Of a stretch of DNA of 64,000 bases, positions 15,890 to 61,240 are shown piece after piece. A program made the position numbers and the translations under genes. This stretch comes from Qipengyuania mesophila (GTDB lineage Bacteria > Pseudomonadota > Alphaproteobacteria > Sphingomonadales > Sphingomonadaceae). Below the pieces are notes generated by a model. That model was given only the letters and a program-made list of their open reading frames with translations, did not search any database and was not told where the DNA came from. Where the stretch lies: positions 901,501-965,500 of the forward strand of contig NZ_JAIGNU010000001.1 of the NCBI RefSeq assembly GCF_019711655.1. Direction: 5' to 3'. Within the stretch, counting starts at the first letter, position 1. Each line of letters starts with the position of its first letter.

Positions 15890-17311
15890 ATGAAGGTGAA
15901 GGCAATTCTGCTGGCGGGTGCGCTGGCGATAACGGGACAGGCAGCGGCGCAGGATACCGCGACGCGAGACCTCACCCCGCACGAGCAGCGCGTACGCGAC
16001 ATCTACCGCGACATCATCGCTTTCCGCAGCGCCGCAGGTCAGGAACAGGTCGACGACGAAGTCGCCTATCTCAAGGGGCGGCTGGCCGAGGCGGGTTTCG
16101 CCGAGGAAGACCTGATGGTCACCGACTACGACAGCAATGGCAATGCCACGCAGGGGTTGATCGTGCGCTATCGCGGCGACGGCTCCTCGGGCGAGAAGCC
16201 GATCGTCCTGCTCGCGCATATGGATGTGGTCGACGCGCTGCCCGAAGACTGGGAGCGCGATCCCTTCACGCTGGTCGAGGAGGACGGCTATTTCTTCGGT
16301 CGCGGGACGCAGGACAACAAATACGGTGTCGCCAATCTCACCGGCACCTTCATCCGGCTGAAGGAGGAAGGCTGGATGCCCAACCGCGATCTCTATCTCG
16401 CCTTCTCGGGCGACGAAGAGACCGGGATGATCTCGACCCGCGCGCAGGCCAAGTGGGTCGCCGAGAATGTCGACCCGGCCTATGTCCTCAATTCGGATGC
16501 GGGAGGGATCGGGCTCGCCGATGATTTCTCGCCCATCGCGCAGCAGGTCCAGCTGGCCGAAAAGACCTATGTCACCTTCGACATCACTGCGGCCAATCCG
16601 GGCGGCCATTCCTCGCGCCCGCGCCCCGACAATGCGATCTACGATCTCGCCGCAGCGCTGACGCGGATCTCACAGCATGCCTTTCCGGTGCGCGAGAGCG
16701 AGCTGACGCGCAGCTATTTCGCCGCCATGGGCCAGAGCATTCCCGGAGAGCTCGGCGCGGCGATGCGCGCCTTTGCCGCCGATCCCGCCGATGCTGCGGC
16801 TATCGCGACGATCAGCGCCGATCCGGGCTTCGTCGGCACGCTGCGCACGACCTGCGTCGCGACAATGCTGAAGGCCGGCCATGCCGAGAACGCCCTGCCG
16901 CAATCGGCCACAGCCACGGTCAATTGCCGCGTCTTCCCCGGCGAGGGGGTCGAGAGCGTTAAGGCCGCGCTCGAACAGGCGATCGGCAATGAGGCGATCA
17001 GCGTGACGCAGCGCGCCGAGGCGACCGAAAGCGCCATGAGCAGCTTCCCCGATGAGGTCCGCGAGGCGCTCGCCAAATCGCTGGCCGCGCGCTTCGGCAG
17101 GCCCATCCCTATGGTCCCGACGATGTCCTCTGGCGGGACCGACGGCATGCATTACCGGGCGCTGGGCTATGACACCATCGCCATCGGCGCGGGCGCCAGC
17201 CGCTCGCAGGATATCTACGCCCACGGGCTCAACGAGCGTATGCGGGTCGACGCCTTCTATGCCGGGCTCGACCACTGGAGCATCGTGCTCAAGGAACTGG
17301 CCGGAGACTAG
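15890..17311 (+). CDS. Secreted M20/M25/M40-family metallopeptidase
   Basis: 473 residues. Signal peptide MKVKAILLAGALAITGQAAA, then the mature enzyme. Zinc-site motifs LLAHMDVVDA (His plus Asp), RGTQDNKYG (bridging Asp) and SGDEETGM (catalytic Glu plus Glu ligand) are present, with AANPGGHSSRP beginning the dimerisation lid and DGMHYRALGYDT near the C-terminal His. It should be a periplasmic di-zinc amino- or carboxypeptidase/amidase. The upstream frame is open but overlaps folK, and the ATG at 15890 uniquely yields the signal peptide. It converges with the next gene with a four-base overlap. Confidence 0.92.
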   Translation: MKVKAILLAGALAITGQAAAQDTATRDLTPHEQRVRDIYRDIIAFRSAAGQEQVDDEVAYLKGRLAEAGFAEEDLMVTDYDSNGNATQGLIVRYRGDGSSGEKPIVLLAHMDVVDALPEDWERDPFTLVEEDGYFFGRGTQDNKYGVANLTGTFIRLKEEGWMPNRDLYLAFSGDEETGMISTRAQAKWVAENVDPAYVLNSDAGGIGLADDFSPIAQQVQLAEKTYVTFDITAANPGGHSSRPRPDNAIYDLAAALTRISQHAFPVRESELTRSYFAAMGQSIPGELGAAMRAFAADPADAAAIATISADPGFVGTLRTTCVATMLKAGHAENALPQSATATVNCRVFPGEGVESVKAALEQAIGNEAISVTQRAEATESAMSSFPDEVREALAKSLAARFGRPIPMVPTMSSGGTDGMHYRALGYDTIAIGAGASRSQDIYAHGLNERMRVDAFYAGLDHWSIVLKELAGD

Positions 17312-17727
17312 AATATCTCGTTGGGCGCCGGTCGGACGATGAAGGCGCCCAGCGATAGCTGGCGTTTGCGCGCCAGGAAGCCGCTGGTTTCCATGCCGTA
17401 GGGGGCGAAGACGTTCGCGGAGTAATTGGTCGCGCGCAGCTGCACTTCGACCATGTCTTCGGTCTGGCGGTGGACGACGATCGCGGCAGCGGCGACCAGC
17501 CCTTCGGCAATGCGCGACCGCAGCACTTCGGCGAACCGGTCTAGCACGGTCTGCTGGCCGTCGATGGCACCGCTCTCGAGCACGGCGACATTCTGGATCG
17601 AGCCGGTCACGCGCAGCTCGAACAGCAGCGGGAAGAAGGTCCCGTCCTTCTCGATCCGGGCGACTGCCGCCTCGAGCGCGGCGGTAAAGAGGGCGTCGAG
17701 CTGGTTCTGATCGATGCCCCCTGCCAA
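17308..17727 (-). CDS. Conserved hypothetical protein (TTG start)
   Basis: 139 residues if translation starts at TTG 17727, two bases after the aguB stop and about ten bases after a GAGGA ribosome site inside the end of aguB. No ATG precedes the conserved-looking sequence. The protein is a soluble alpha/beta type with AALEAAVARIEKDGTFFPLLFEL, VLDRFAEVLRSRIAEGLVAAAAIVVHRQ and VEVQLRATNYSANVFAPY. I do not recognise a named family. Position and spacing suggest it is co-transcribed with aguB. Its stop overlaps the peptidase stop on the other strand. Confidence 0.7.
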   Translation of the reverse strand: MAGGIDQNQLDALFTAALEAAVARIEKDGTFFPLLFELRVTGSIQNVAVLESGAIDGQQTVLDRFAEVLRSRIAEGLVAAAAIVVHRQTEDMVEVQLRATNYSANVFAPYGMETSGFLARKRQLSLGAFIVRPAPNEIF

Positions 17728-17729
17728 GC

Positions 17730-18593
17730 TCAGAAATCCTCGGCGATGCGCCCGTAGAGCTGCGGCCGGCGATCGCGGAAGAAGCCCATCCCCGCGCGGT
17801 GCTTGGCCGCGCGGTCGAGATCGAGCGTCGCGATCAGCGCGCCGCTGTCCGAGGCGCCGAATTCCTCGGTCAGGTCGCCCCATTCGTCCGAGATGAAGCT
17901 GTGCCCGTAGAAGCTCTGCTGCCGGTCGGCCGGCCCTTCATGGCCGATCCGGTTGGCGGCGCAGACGGGCATGCAGTTCGACACCGCATGGCCGATCATC
18001 GCGCGGCGCCACATGCGGCTGGTGTCGAGATCGGCGTCATAGGGCTCGGAGCCGATCGCGGTCGGATAGAACAGCACTTCGGCGCCCTGCAAAGCCATCA
18101 CGCGCGCGCATTCGGGGTACCACTGGTCCCAGCAGATACCGACGCCGATGCGCGCGCCGAAGACATCCCATACCTTGAACCCGTCGTTGCCCGGGCGGAA
18201 GTAGTACTTCTCTTCGTAGCCCGGACCGTCGGGAATGTGGCTCTTGCGATAGGTGCCCATCAGTTCGCCATCGGGTCCGACCATGGCGAGCGTGTTGTAG
18301 TAGTGGTGTCCGTCGCGCTCGAAGAAGCTGGTCGGTATCGCCACGCCGAGCTTCTTCGCGAGGTCCTGCATCGCCTGCACACTCGGGCTGTCGGCTGTCG
18401 GGTGCGCCAAAGAGAAGAGGTCCTCCTCCTCCTCGCGGCAGAAGTATTCGCCCGCGAAGAGTTCGGGCGGCAGGATGACCTGCGCACCCTTCCCGGCAGC
18501 CTCTTCGACGAGTGCGGAAACGGCCGCGATATTGTCCGCCGCCTCCTTGCGGGCGAGCGACAGCTGCAGAACGGCTACGGTCAGGTCTCTCAT
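17730..18593 (-). CDS. aguB: N-carbamoylputrescine amidase
   Basis: 287 residues, nitrilase superfamily branch 11. The catalytic triad is Glu44 (LPPELFAGEYF), Lys117 (YRKSHIPDGPGY) and Cys154 (GVGICWDQWYPE), and the segment FYPTAIGSEP is characteristic of this branch. It converts N-carbamoylputrescine to putrescine, CO2 and NH3 in the arginine decarboxylase/agmatine route. The usual partner agmatine deiminase (aguA) is not in the window. A TTG-start gene follows within two bases. Confidence 0.93.
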   Translation of the reverse strand: MRDLTVAVLQLSLARKEAADNIAAVSALVEEAAGKGAQVILPPELFAGEYFCREEEEDLFSLAHPTADSPSVQAMQDLAKKLGVAIPTSFFERDGHHYYNTLAMVGPDGELMGTYRKSHIPDGPGYEEKYYFRPGNDGFKVWDVFGARIGVGICWDQWYPECARVMALQGAEVLFYPTAIGSEPYDADLDTSRMWRRAMIGHAVSNCMPVCAANRIGHEGPADRQQSFYGHSFISDEWGDLTEEFGASDSGALIATLDLDRAAKHRAGMGFFRDRRPQLYGRIAEDF

Positions 18594-18603
18594 GCGCTCC
18601 GCA

Positions 18604-19368
18604 CTATTTCTCCCGCAGGGCGAAGTCCACCTGGATATAGACGTCGCTGCGCGTGGTCCCGACCATCATCGAGGGCGAGCCCTGTTCGGGCATGGGCATG
18701 CTGACGGGCGGCGGAGGCGGCGCCACCGCCTGCGTCCGGATCGCCGCGCTTTCGTTCATTGCATCGGCGCCGCGCAACCAGGTCTGGCCCTGCTGCCCCC
18801 CGGCGTCGCGGATGTAGAGCACCCGGCTTACTTCCATTCCCGCGGCTTCGGCATAGACCTCGGCCCGCTTCCGCGCCGCCTTGTAAGCGTCGGCATAGGC
18901 GAGGTTGGCGGTCGCCTCGGGATCGGTCATCGACAGGTTCGGGCCCGACACGATGTTGGCCCCGGCTTCGGTGACCGCGGTCACCGCAGCACCGGCCCTG
19001 GCCGGATCGCGCATCGTCACCTCGACGACGTTGCCGGCCTGGAACTGGCCCTTGCGGTCGCCCCAGTTGATTCGCTGGACGCTGACCGCGCGGGTCTGGA
19101 TGTCCTTTTCCTCGACGCCCAGTTCGCGCAGCGCCACGACGATCTCGGCGATCTTGTCCTGATTGGCCTTGCTCGCTTCCCTGGCCGATCGGGCCCAGGT
19201 TTCGACTCCCGCCTGGAACTGGGCGCGGTCGGGGCGGCTTTCGGCCTGCCCACTGGCGCTGACCGAGAGCAGCGTCTCGCCGTGGTCGACCCCGCGCGCC
19301 TCGTCGGCACGGTCGGTGCAGGCCGCGAGCGCGAGCGGCGCGACGAGAAGGAGATAGACAGGTTTCAT
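18604..19368 (-). CDS. SIMPL (DUF541) domain lipoprotein
   Basis: 254 residues with lipobox LALAAC, Cys16 being the expected lipidated residue. The SIMPL domain (about 30-225) shows LLSVSASGQAESRPDRAQFQAGVE and AYKAARKRAEVYAEAAGME, typical of YggE/BP26-type proteins that assemble into periplasmic or outer-membrane ring oligomers and are linked to oxidative and heat stress in E. coli. The ribosome site GAGGGA and the bases up to one before the ATG form the 3' arm of a long hairpin (19370-19412), suggesting control of initiation. It is followed 10 bases later by the aguB start. Confidence 0.88.
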   Translation of the reverse strand: MKPVYLLLVAPLALAACTDRADEARGVDHGETLLSVSASGQAESRPDRAQFQAGVETWARSAREASKANQDKIAEIVVALRELGVEEKDIQTRAVSVQRINWGDRKGQFQAGNVVEVTMRDPARAGAAVTAVTEAGANIVSGPNLSMTDPEATANLAYADAYKAARKRAEVYAEAAGMEVSRVLYIRDAGGQQGQTWLRGADAMNESAAIRTQAVAPPPPPVSMPMPEQGSPSMMVGTTRSDVYIQVDFALREK

Positions 19369-19369
19369 C

Positions 19370-19412
19370 GAGCATTCCCTCTATGTGATAGTGTTACATC
19401 GAGGGAATGCTC
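19370..19412 (-). promoter_or_regulatory. Hairpin sequestering the SIMPL ribosome-binding site
   Basis: Perfect 12-bp inverted repeat 19370-19381 / 19401-19412 (GAGCATTCCCTC and its complement), one internal mismatch, then four more pairs (ATGT/ACAT, 19396-19399 and 19383-19386) and a 9-base loop. On the minus strand the 3' arm contains GAGGGA at a normal distance from the ATG, and the arm ends one base before that ATG. If transcribed, the RNA hairpin would hide the ribosome site; as DNA it could instead be an operator. Function is inference. Confidence 0.7.
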
Positions 19413-19439
19413 ACCGGGGCATGAACGCTGGCTGACGGA

Positions 19440-20357
19440 TCAGCGCTTGCGGAAGAGCAGCGTCATCCGGTCGGATTCGCCCAGATCGCGCGTGCGCGCG
19501 TCCATGGCATCGTCTCCGCTCAGGCCGGGAGGCATCACCCAGACGCCGCCTTCCCAGTTCGCCGGATCGCGCGGATTGGAATTGATCGTGCTGCTGTCGA
19601 CGAGTTCGAACCCGTGCGCGCGCATCAGCGCGATGACATCCGTTTCGCGCAGATAGCCGTTCCCGCCCAGCGTGTAATCGGCGGGAGCACTCTCCTTGGC
19701 GCGATGCTGGACGATGCCGACCATCCCGTCGGGTTTGAGCAGGCCGCGGATGCGCGAGAGTTCTGTGTACATCGCGCCGGAGCGGAGCAGATTGTGCATC
19801 TCGCGGAAGATCAGCACGCGATCAACCTGGCCCTTCAGTTCCTCCGGCAGGTCCTGCGAGCCATAGACCGCCATCGGCGCGCCGGTCAGGCCCCATCCGG
19901 GCGCGGCTTCGCGGAACTTCCCCGGAAGGCCGCCGAAATAGGTCTCGAACCGCTCTGCGTCGGCGGCGGCGGGATCGGGGGTGAGGCCGATGTAGAGGCC
20001 CTGCGAACCGAGATAGGGGACGAGTACACGCGTGTACCAGCCGCTCGCCGGCATGTAGTCGACCACGGTCTGGCCGGGCTGAACCCGGAAGAAGCCGAGC
20101 GTTTCGGCGGGGTGACGCCACTCGTCGCGTGCCCGGTCCTCGTTGCGGGTCGGGGCGGCAAGCACCTGGTCCATCGACACCGGGGCGACGACGGGCGCCG
20201 CTGCATCGTCGGGTTGGGCCTGTTCGTCGGGTCCCAGGATGACATCGAGAATGCGGCCGAGCACCTGGCGGGTCGAATTGCCCTCCTGCGCGACAGCGGG
20301 TGTTGCCATGGTGGCAAGCGCTGCGCCAGCCAACGCGGCGGTAATCGATCTACGCAT
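19440..20357 (-). CDS. Predicted methyltransferase with signal peptide (COG4798-like)
   Basis: 305 residues from the ATG at 20357, with GGGGAGAAATCA before it. Residues 1-24 (MRRSITAALAGAALATMA, then TPAVA) form a clean Sec signal peptide. The mature part has DEWRHPAETLGFFRVQPGQTVVDYMPASGWYTRVL, which matches the SAM-binding strand-loop of a predicted class I methyltransferase family found in alphaproteobacteria, and later RIRGLLKPDGMVGIVQHR. An exported SAM enzyme is puzzling because SAM is cytosolic. The protein may bind another nucleotide-like ligand or be a non-catalytic relative. It is monocistronic on the minus strand, divergent from msrA. Confidence 0.8.
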   Translation of the reverse strand: MRRSITAALAGAALATMATPAVAQEGNSTRQVLGRILDVILGPDEQAQPDDAAAPVVAPVSMDQVLAAPTRNEDRARDEWRHPAETLGFFRVQPGQTVVDYMPASGWYTRVLVPYLGSQGLYIGLTPDPAAADAERFETYFGGLPGKFREAAPGWGLTGAPMAVYGSQDLPEELKGQVDRVLIFREMHNLLRSGAMYTELSRIRGLLKPDGMVGIVQHRAKESAPADYTLGGNGYLRETDVIALMRAHGFELVDSSTINSNPRDPANWEGGVWVMPPGLSGDDAMDARTRDLGESDRMTLLFRKR

Positions 20358-20460
20358 TGATTTCTCCCCTGTTTGTACCCTGACAGCAATAGTTGCGCGG
20401 GCACGCATGACAAGGACGAAGCGGCTCCCTATCTGTTCCGCGCAAAGGAGATCGAGTGAC

Positions 20461-20997
20461 ATGGCTAAACAGCAGGCGATCGTTGCCGGCGGGTGCTTCT
20501 GGTGCACCGAGGCGGTGATGAAGGACGTGATCGGCGTCGACGGCGTCGAGAGCGGCTATATCGGCGGGCACAAGGCGCACCCGACCTACAAGGAGGTCTG
20601 CACCGGCGACACCGGCCATGCTGAGGGCGTGCGCGTGACCTTCGACGACGAGCGGATCAGCCTCGCCCAGCTCTACGACGTCTTCATGGGCACGCACGAT
20701 CCGACCCAGTTGAACCGGCAGGGCAACGACGTCGGCACGCAATACCGCAGCGCGATCTTCCCGCTCGAAGGGCAGGAAGCGGAGGCGAAGGCCGCCATCG
20801 CGCGCTGGAACGACGAGCATCCGGGTCAGGAAGCGGTGACCACCGTCGAAACCGGCGAATGGTATCCGGCCGAGGATTACCACCAGGAGTATTGGGAAGG
20901 CGAAGGCCAGCGCAATCCCTACTGCCTCGCGGTCATCCCTCCCAAGCTGATGAAGCTGCGCAAGAGCTTCCAGAAATACCTCAAGGACGACGCCTGA
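20461..20997 (+). CDS. msrA: Peptide-methionine (S)-S-oxide reductase MsrA
   Basis: 178 residues. The catalytic Cys12 lies in GGCFWCTEAV, and GVxxVxSGYIGG, GHAEGVRVTFDD and HDPTQLNRQGNDVGTQYRS are conserved MsrA blocks. It reduces the S-epimer of methionine sulfoxide in proteins using thioredoxin. There is no signal peptide, so it acts in the cytosol. A ribosome site AAGGAGAT precedes the ATG. The R-epimer enzyme MsrB is encoded separately at 37035-37436. Confidence 0.97.
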   Translation: MAKQQAIVAGGCFWCTEAVMKDVIGVDGVESGYIGGHKAHPTYKEVCTGDTGHAEGVRVTFDDERISLAQLYDVFMGTHDPTQLNRQGNDVGTQYRSAIFPLEGQEAEAKAAIARWNDEHPGQEAVTTVETGEWYPAEDYHQEYWEGEGQRNPYCLAVIPPKLMKLRKSFQKYLKDDA

Positions 20998-21038
20998 TTC
21001 GGCTTCCGCCGGTGCAGGAGAGGGGAAGGATTTCCCCT

Positions 21039-21060
21039 CGACAGTCCATGCACATGGACC
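21039..21060. repeat. Palindromic element after msrA
   Basis: In the 218-base gap 20998-21215, GTCCATG (21045-21051) and CATGGAC (21054-21060) form a 7-bp inverted repeat around CA. The 16-mer starting at 21039 (CGACAGTCCATGCACA) recurs with one extra G at 39850 after dnaA. It has no T tract, so terminator status is doubtful. The rest of the gap shows nothing I can name. Confidence 0.35.
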
Positions 21061-21215
21061 GCCTGTTACACGGTCCATTGCGAAAAAAGAGCCGGGCCCG
21101 CACGCAACCTCCTGATGGAGAGGCAGCGGGTGTGCGGATCGACCATGCGGCATGGCGCAAATATCGCACGGCGGTGCCATTGTAGGAAAGCGCGTGCTCT
21201 GCAATTCTCGCGCGC

Positions 21216-22046
21216 ATGCCGGGAGCACACCGCAAGGCCTTCACATCCGACCATGTCGTCCATGGCGACGGCAGGGTCGAGTTCGCCTGTTCGCAGGACA
21301 CGCAGGCCTGGCCGTGGACGGCGATCGGCCCGCACCATCCCGGCGCGATCCAGGCGGCGAGCTACTGGCTGAGCGTCGAAAGCGCCATGGCGCTGGGCGG
21401 CTGGGACCCGGACAAATGGTCCGCGCTGACCTGGACCCGCTGGGCCTGTGGCGATCCGGGGGTCGGCCGCATGGCGAGGGGGCGTTACGAGCGCGTGCGG
21501 ATCGAGGGGAAGGAAAGCTTCTCGGTCCATCTCTTCGATGCAGAGGATGCGCTCGTCTGTCGCCTCGACGGGCGCGGCGTGGTGTTCCGCACGCGCGATT
21601 TCGAAAAGTGGCGCAGCGAGGCGAAGGGGGCGTCGGCTAAGATCGCGTCGGCCAACTTTGACTATGCCGATCCCGAAGTGCTCGGCCTCGACGACGGCGA
21701 ATTCGCCTTCCTCGGCCCACTCGACGGAGCCCGGGCGACCGGCCTGCTCGATGCCGAGAACGCCATGCCACCCGCCCATCCCTGGCTCGACGGTTCGGGC
21801 GACCATGTGAACTCGGCGCACCTTGCCGAGGTCGCCCGGCAGTTCGTCAGCCTGCTGCGCGGCGGCGCCCCCTTCCGCGTGACCAAGGCCGAGATGCGCT
21901 TCGATCGCTATGTCGAACTGGGCGTGCCGTTCGAGATCGAACGGACAGGTGGCGAGAACGACTTCGTCTCGATGCAATTGCGTCAGTCTGGCCGAGACTG
22001 CACGCGGATCGACTATCGAATAGAACCAAGACCGCCAAATAGTTGA
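21216..22046 (+). CDS. Hypothetical protein, possibly hotdog-fold
   Basis: 276 residues with no signal peptide or membrane segment. I do not recognise the family. The N-terminal part has VEFACSQDTQAWPWTAIGPHHPGAIQAAS, the middle is Asp/Glu-rich, and the C-terminus (about 215-276) has FRVTKAEMRFDRYVELGVPFEIER and FVSMQLRQSGRDCTRIDY. That beta-rich tail looks like the end of acyl-dehydratase or thioesterase hotdog domains, but this is only a visual impression. It is a free-standing gene downstream of msrA after a 218-base gap. Confidence 0.65.
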   Translation: MPGAHRKAFTSDHVVHGDGRVEFACSQDTQAWPWTAIGPHHPGAIQAASYWLSVESAMALGGWDPDKWSALTWTRWACGDPGVGRMARGRYERVRIEGKESFSVHLFDAEDALVCRLDGRGVVFRTRDFEKWRSEAKGASAKIASANFDYADPEVLGLDDGEFAFLGPLDGARATGLLDAENAMPPAHPWLDGSGDHVNSAHLAEVARQFVSLLRGGAPFRVTKAEMRFDRYVELGVPFEIERTGGENDFVSMQLRQSGRDCTRIDYRIEPRPPNS

Positions 22047-60999: not shown

Positions 61000-61152
61000 G
61001 GTGTCTCTCGTCAAATAAATACGCGCCGGAAATGGGGTCCCGACGCGCGAAATCAAGCGCGCCGTTAACTGCCCCGGGGGATTCGGTCAAGGACAGAGTG
61101 AGTCTTTGCCGGGTGCGCCGACGACGTCCGTCGCCGACTTTCGGCTGCACCG

Positions 61153-61229
61153 CCCCACTCCCCCACCCGGCCACCCATAGAATACCGTATAGAATACCGT
61201 GCCGTGGGTGGCCGGGTGGGGGAAGTGGG
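61153..61229. repeat. Long perfect inverted repeat with tandem-repeat loop
   Basis: An 18-base arm at 61160-61177 is exactly complementary to 61205-61222, extending to about 24 pairs with one bulge (61153-61177 / 61205-61229). The 27-base loop contains two tandem copies of the 12-mer ATAGAATACCGT (61177-61188 and 61189-61200). The arms are C/G-only-rich and the loop A/T-rich. It lies in the gap between rpmJ and the HIT gene. Origin and function are unknown. Confidence 0.75.
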
Positions 61230-61240
61230 CCGGTGCCGAA

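Follow-up and report, generated by a model that had tools for sequence, protein, structure and literature searches.

The inverted repeat that immediately precedes the SIMPL lipoprotein gene of Qipengyuania mesophila is a palindrome of two layers, in which the outer arms are conserved as structure and the core as sequence. The hairpin is conserved upstream of SIMPL in Qipengyuania. Its outer arms are placed where they would bury the ribosome site in RNA, and its core has the form of a DNA operator, with Zur among the candidate regulators.

The palindrome occupies positions 19370..19412 of the window (the whole stretch of 64,000 nucleotides that was analysed), with the minus strand as mRNA strand. 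The SIMPL (DUF541) open reading frame follows on the same strand (18604..19368) and matches PF04402 at 4.9e-36. A lipobox-like LALAAC could be read by eye in its product, in line with the SIMPL lipoprotein of the initial annotation; the NCBIfam model NF008299 ‘oxidative stress defense protein’ scored 36.6 bits, under its cut-off of 249. Downstream of SIMPL lies a carbon-nitrogen hydrolase gene (17730..18593, minus strand; PF00795, 1.5e-51). Upstream, a co-directional open reading frame (19440..20357, minus strand, start picked by eye) is a possible source of read-through; it returned no Pfam or NCBIfam family at E 0.001, and we take it to be methyltransferase-like. Also near SIMPL, and divergent from this upstream gene, is msrA, for a peptide methionine sulfoxide reductase (20458-20997).

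Folded as mRNA, 19370-19412 shows GAGCATTCCCTC, one mismatch, 4 further pairs and a 9-nt loop, with 12 pairs ahead of the mismatch, just as described earlier from inspection. The 5' outer arm, or anti-SD strand (19400..19412, minus strand), forms the covarying pairs at d = 9-16. The core dyad ATGTRAYANTRTYACAT (19383..19399), 17 bp long and conserved as sequence, is a Zur-box-like candidate operator. The 3' outer arm (19370..19382, minus strand), assigned by covariation and position, carries the ribosome site: a Shine-Dalgarno-like GAGGGA, paired within the hairpin, lies at 19376..19381 on the minus strand, and one base separates the end of the hairpin from the ATG at 19368-19366, again as first reported. 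The minus-strand fold of 106 nt reached -31 kcal/mol (z -2.33), and 4 of 200 shuffles were equally good. For the plus strand, 66 nt folded at -31.9 kcal/mol (z -4.75; 0 of 200 shuffles), with G-T pairs lengthening the top. A listing of inverted repeats in the window (arm length >= 14 nt, spacing <= 60 nt, exact 9-base seed) gave 16, of which this hairpin is the most complementary (17-nt arms, 94%), and it is conservation in relatives that places it far beyond chance. Elsewhere in the window, an inverted repeat at 61152-61230 has 26-nt arms that are 88% complementary and spaced 27 nt apart.

A SIMPL gene was found in 31 of 60 genomes of the genus (E <= 1e-50). A gap-free alignment with the repeat at its centre took in 33 leaders, 30 from the genus and three from other genera; outside this set stand genome G019 (its core is far upstream), one locus with a decayed SIMPL (L026), duplicates of the same leader and distant relatives. 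A wider table held 57 leaders after removal of 28 duplicate or near-duplicate loci and of those whose best core fell below 13/17. In one leader (L013) the SIMPL start codon is CTG, while its sister L015 has ATG.

Across the alignment, the eight outer arm pairs were paired in 93.9% of 264 cells, as compared to 66.4 +/- 1.8% in shuffled and at most 63.3% in slid controls. Double changes filled 75 cells against 21.3 +/- 4.4 in shuffles, none of 500 of which reached the observed value. Changes occurred on both sides at each of the eight pairs, so that the comparison of close relatives suggested at the outset found the pairing kept and compensatory changes at 8/8 outer pairs. On a maximum-likelihood tree of SIMPL proteins, we counted at least 49 Watson-Crick pair-type changes in the eight arm pairs and 7 in core pairs d3-8. 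The arms thus covary across the 33 leaders and yet have no common sequence. On the mRNA strand, G-T cells outnumbered A-C cells (20 vs 4; 17 vs 4 as events); allowing for composition makes this excess weak (events, p 0.055; cells, p 0.022), so that as proof of RNA it is only suggestive. Two leaders, L007 and L017, keep the core and lack in-register arms (2/8 and 3/8 pairs).

The core behaves differently. Its inner eight positions are nearly fixed (TGT..A...T..CA, with some exceptions) and show no covariation, and pairing within it is no better than in shuffles, of which 224 of 500 were equally high. Position d2 is an unpaired C-A in 18 of the 33 leaders, and yet has a pyrimidine on the left and a purine on the right in all 33; such symmetry despite mispairing fits a protein reading double-stranded DNA rather than a stem. 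In the window and most leaders the core reads GTRA-N5-TYAC, an odd-centred palindrome. A core score of 16 or 17/17 was found in none of 2160 shuffled leaders, the template itself having been taken from the leaders that were shuffled. The initial annotation had offered ribosome-site masking and a dyad operator as alternatives; each has found support, masking in the arms and the operator in the core, so that what fell is the choice between them, and each seems to apply to its own part of the palindrome.

The position of the ribosome site is well kept among relatives. The start codon lies 21-25 nt from the repeat centre in 31/33 leaders (19 and 30 nt in the remaining two). A match of 4-5 bases to AAGGAGGTGA stands 10-14 bases 5' of the start in 25/33 leaders, and the other eight have a G run without the 4-base match. 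Hairpin stability ranges from -15.7 to -28.9 kcal/mol in 30/33 leaders. With both arms present, predicted SD exposure does not exceed 0.01 at any temperature between 20 and 55 C in 28/33 leaders; the exceptions are L007, L017, L018, L118 and, slightly, L121, where exposure is almost flat with temperature. For a message beginning 6 nt past the centre, the median predicted exposure is 0.33. For a lock of the phage T4 gene e type, prediction and covariation support an SD paired in the longer transcript, and we consider it probable that RNA pairing masks the SIMPL ribosome site.

Temperature gating, as first proposed for this hairpin, was rejected: a message with both arms is predicted to stay shut at any ordinary temperature, and so does not behave as a simple thermometer. 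Compared with the RNA thermometers ROSE and fourU, in so far as the excerpted descriptions of these go, the SIMPL hairpin likewise sits over a ribosome site, but is very stable, has no predicted opening up to 55 C and has no Rfam match. Ligand gating, also raised earlier, found no support, as Rfam covariance models searched over 17000-21500 at E <= 1 gave nothing at the hairpin; the lone match, ilvB-OMG at 17184-17380 (14.9 bits vs 95.9), was elsewhere and at chance level. In one relative (L086), a long hairpin encloses the core 83 nt before the start, away from the ribosome site. Among relatives with a distant core or none, 4 of 8 leaders had unrelated hairpins near the SD with z < -2.5, which is suggestive only.

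Scanned across the family (397 genomes), the exact core pattern turned up in 37 and the reversed pattern in none. The context of the exact core is known for 31 of the 37 (26 loci that were read, plus the window, G025, G069, G083 and G208, with six sites left out). The core stands before SIMPL (six), vWA/YfbK-like (six), beta-propeller (two), DUF4349 (two) and DUF4139/4140-like genes (one, weak and sub-cut-off), and before MerC-type genes (nine), TonB receptors (three), TonB (one) and one other gene; one or two members per group were checked with Pfam, and the rest were named by likeness of frame or neighbours. The nine MerC-type loci rest on Pfam (one), frame likeness (four), ctaA on the other side (two), and sequence likeness together with a Fur-family gene (two). 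For the Fur-family gene that follows these last two, the best NCBIfam model was Zur (63.8 and 63.3 bits against a cut-off of 167), and for the one TonB receptor tested, truncated at the end of its locus, it was ZnuD (258.9; cut-off 950). The same core thus lies at the promoters of zinc-homeostasis-type genes of the family (MerC-type, ZnuD-like and TonB), the names being partly sub-cut-off. These Zur and ZnuD matches beside the core point to zinc, with scores that lie below the NCBIfam cut-offs. In L081 and L093, the core lies between SIMPL and a divergent msrA.

The core also resembles published Zur sites, with which it shares a GTNA-N5-TNAC frame (PMC4176598; PMC5387054). As far as the consulted parts of these reports extend, the Zur motif of Proteobacteria is GTTA-5N-TAAC, and GTAA works as a half in Caulobacter (PMC4176598); Paracoccus Zur sites tested by gel shift include GTAACGTAATAACAT and kin (GTAAC..AACAT) (PMC5387054); and Zur palindromes are of a 7-1-7 type (PMC6103462). 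The SIMPL core is alike in its odd-centred palindrome and frame, and in that the same 17-mer pattern stands at the family's MerC-type and ZnuD-like promoters. It differs from the sites in these excerpts (PMC4176598; PMC6103462; PMC5387054) in that the third base of the half is mostly A/G, where the common frame has T, and in being nested in a hairpin, having SIMPL as its target and being the single such site found in the genome. A search of the literature that covered few subscription journals recognised no publication on the SIMPL leader or on Zur control of SIMPL. From E. coli, the znuA-znuC gap, within which we take the Zur site to lie, contains GTGTGATATTATAACAT, a 15/17 match to the core pattern that 2 of 2000 shuffles equalled.

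The small number of core sites counts against Zur, whose regulon should have more sites than were found. In the window's own genome there was no second core within three mismatches, except three in apparent coding frames. Among the 60 genus genomes, two other core patterns gave only SIMPL leaders and one chance-like coding site, the looser pattern hitting 15 SIMPL leaders besides that site. No Zur regulon with such boxes thus shows up in the genus, though these patterns would miss GTTA-type boxes. None of the 397 genomes had two exact cores, so that no genome showed the exact core at both zinc genes and SIMPL. These absences, including that of a zinc-type site within three mismatches in the window's genome, speak for a regulator other than Zur at the core. 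Such a regulator would serve an envelope set of SIMPL, YfbK/vWA, beta-propeller, DUF4349 and DUF4139/4140-like genes, which make up 17 of the 31 known contexts. It has against it that the same 17-mer pattern occurs before MerC-type and ZnuD-like genes of the family, and that the pattern matches Zur sites of other Proteobacteria, as the excerpted reports give them. We regard a non-Zur regulator as a serious minority possibility, and on sequence grounds give Zur itself an even chance of being the regulator at the SIMPL core.

Upstream of the palindrome we identified a direct-repeat box, TCAGCCAGCGTTCA (TCA-N8-TCA; 19422..19435, minus strand), which may be an activator site. It ends 22-23 nt before the core in 28/33 leaders, where it was placed via its TTCA/TTAA half, the other half and the spacing not being used for placing. 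The box pattern occurs at 11 places in the genome and the reversed pattern at 6, so the box is not specific on its own. Similar boxes were seen by eye before core-bearing vWA-type genes (L223, L236-L238 and L242). About 12 nt separate the box from the 5' arm, and no convincing -10 element was found between them; so short a gap favours a promoter whose transcript omits the 5' arm. If the box serves a promoter, transcription would start inside the palindrome and SIMPL's own message would lack the 5' arm, in which case the hairpin would silence upstream read-through only. Five relatives have the core farther out, 83-89 nt before SIMPL, and in several of these it stands 5' of the box; there it could act differently.

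We infer from this geometry a start inside the palindrome, and propose a model in which the core would be a 17-bp Zur-type DNA operator for a zinc-loaded Zur dimer, over or beside the SIMPL promoter, while the arms would pair only as RNA, burying the ribosome site. Transcripts reading through from the upstream gene would hold both arms, fold and stay untranslated; those from SIMPL's own promoter would start inside the palindrome, past the 5' arm, and expose the site. Production of SIMPL would then require its own operator to be unoccupied, with low zinc as the predicted condition. Zur binding, the start position, the occurrence of read-through and the block to translation are all steps that we infer. 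This full model, in which an RNA lock on read-through encloses a Zur-type operator, we put at somewhat short of an even chance. That one inverted repeat is both the DNA operator of a zinc repressor and a ribosome-site lock in read-through RNA is a more tentative proposition still, and on the unlikely side. If true, a gene in an operon-like array would answer only to its own zinc-controlled promoter, and SIMPL/YggE-type proteins would join the zinc-starvation response. Both operators and hairpins over ribosome sites are familiar, and here evolution alone separates the two layers. Such an arrangement, if right, would illustrate how a gene amid an operon-like array can be shielded from the genes around it, and would offer zinc as a physiological signal that could be tested for the puzzling SIMPL family.

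Parts of this design have precedents, as far as the available sections of the reports describe them. The lysozyme gene e of phage T4 has its ribosome site hidden in early transcripts that read through, and late promoters omit the 5' strand (PMC3014915). The SIMPL leader is alike in that its SD is buried by a 5' strand which an internal start would omit, and in that relatives have similar leaders. It differs in belonging to a bacterial chromosomal gene, in its putative internal promoter, in a core like the operator of a dimer and in strong compensatory evolution. Caulobacter Zur represses from sites that overlap the promoter elements or lie between them, and activates from one located 5' of the -35 (PMC4176598).

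The hairpin might instead act as a translational switch within SIMPL's own message, transcribed from a promoter upstream of it and opened by a protein, small RNA, helicase or ligand, with the conserved hairpin top as the RNA recognition site. The pairing and its position over the SD, the conserved top and the 20 to 4 excess of G-T over A-C cells would all suit such a switch. We nevertheless think it unlikely, recognition site included, since the symmetric core occurs without arms at other promoters and far upstream of SIMPL in the five relatives mentioned above, since d2 keeps its pyrimidine/purine symmetry as for double-stranded DNA even where it is unpaired, and since the direct-repeat box leaves so little room for a promoter before the 5' arm.

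Returning to the read-through lock, the arms are a feature of SIMPL and not of its neighbour. The upstream gene is present in 58 of the 60 genus genomes, and its end, read by eye in genomes without SIMPL, carried the element in 0 of 12 cases. This argues against an intrinsic terminator of the upstream gene, or an attenuator of SIMPL, as does the window's hairpin, which has no T tract (longest run 1); a T run of at least 4 does follow the stem directly in 12/33 leaders (at least 5 in 4/33), and we consider a terminator or attenuator improbable. A scar-like remnant of the SIMPL end (GTGGACTTCGCG-like) was seen by eye in L160, L162, L163, L169 and L180, and a deletion in L172 takes the repeat and the SIMPL start from just past the direct-repeat box. 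SIMPL has seemingly been lost more than once within the genus. The upstream-gene end in L163 carries an unrelated GC-rich inverted repeat, also read by eye.

A DNA dyad operator alone, with the arms as extended operator or cruciform, would account for a core that behaves as an operator and is very doubtful for the arms, which covary without a common sequence and at 25 non-SIMPL cores pair at just 1-6 of 8 positions (mean 3.4). A SIMPL locus found by its core and lying outside the alignment (L224) has 8/8 arm pairs, AGGAG in the 3' arm and its ATG 22 nt from the centre. A further SIMPL locus, L210, has 7/8 arm pairs and is not independent, because the search that found it used R1, a model for which the 33 leaders were the training set. 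Among the 57 tabled leaders, every one of the 32 with at least 7/8 arm pairs has the co-directional upstream gene, as do L224 and L210. The rule that arms imply the upstream gene runs one way, since arms are missing from five leaders (L090, L097, L130, L131 and L133) that have both the upstream gene and a core close to the start. Where the upstream gene is not adjacent (L081, L128, L112 and L136), a core-like site lies near SIMPL and arms are absent. A mobile, REP-like repeat was rejected, as the full element occurs at one place in the genome; elsewhere in it, the arm is found only singly and with a mismatch and the core only with three mismatches. No plasmid homologues were found.

When scanned against the 60 genus genomes, R1 recovered the SIMPL leader of every SIMPL-bearing genome but G019 (30 of 31), by construction since these 30 built it. 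It was unmatched in 28 of the 29 genomes without SIMPL, and had a weak match elsewhere in the 29th (G022). A wider hairpin regulon, considered from four non-SIMPL places that were read by eye, was rejected: L196 is a T-tailed terminator, and L197 and L199 lie in apparent coding frames. The fourth, L198, is the weak match in G022 (E 0.005), where a GTGTCACTATGACAT hairpin stands between MucR-like and Fur-like genes. In the family scan, R1 had matches in 22 of 298 genomes, from which 13 further loci were read, L215, L217 and L221 excepted. Besides L210, three of these (L207, L213 and L220) led to a core at other genes, and L204, L205, L209, L211, L212, L214, L216, L218 and L219 were set aside by eye as terminator-like, coding or other genes. 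At L205 (about 1501-1561, genome G287), a long hairpin CTATCCCCTCCATGTTATG...CATAACATGGAGGGGATAG, again read by eye, is followed by the ATG of a hydrolase-like gene, its ribosome site being buried. The hairpin has ATGTTAT/ATAACAT halves that are spaced wider, and is possibly the same trick at a different gene.
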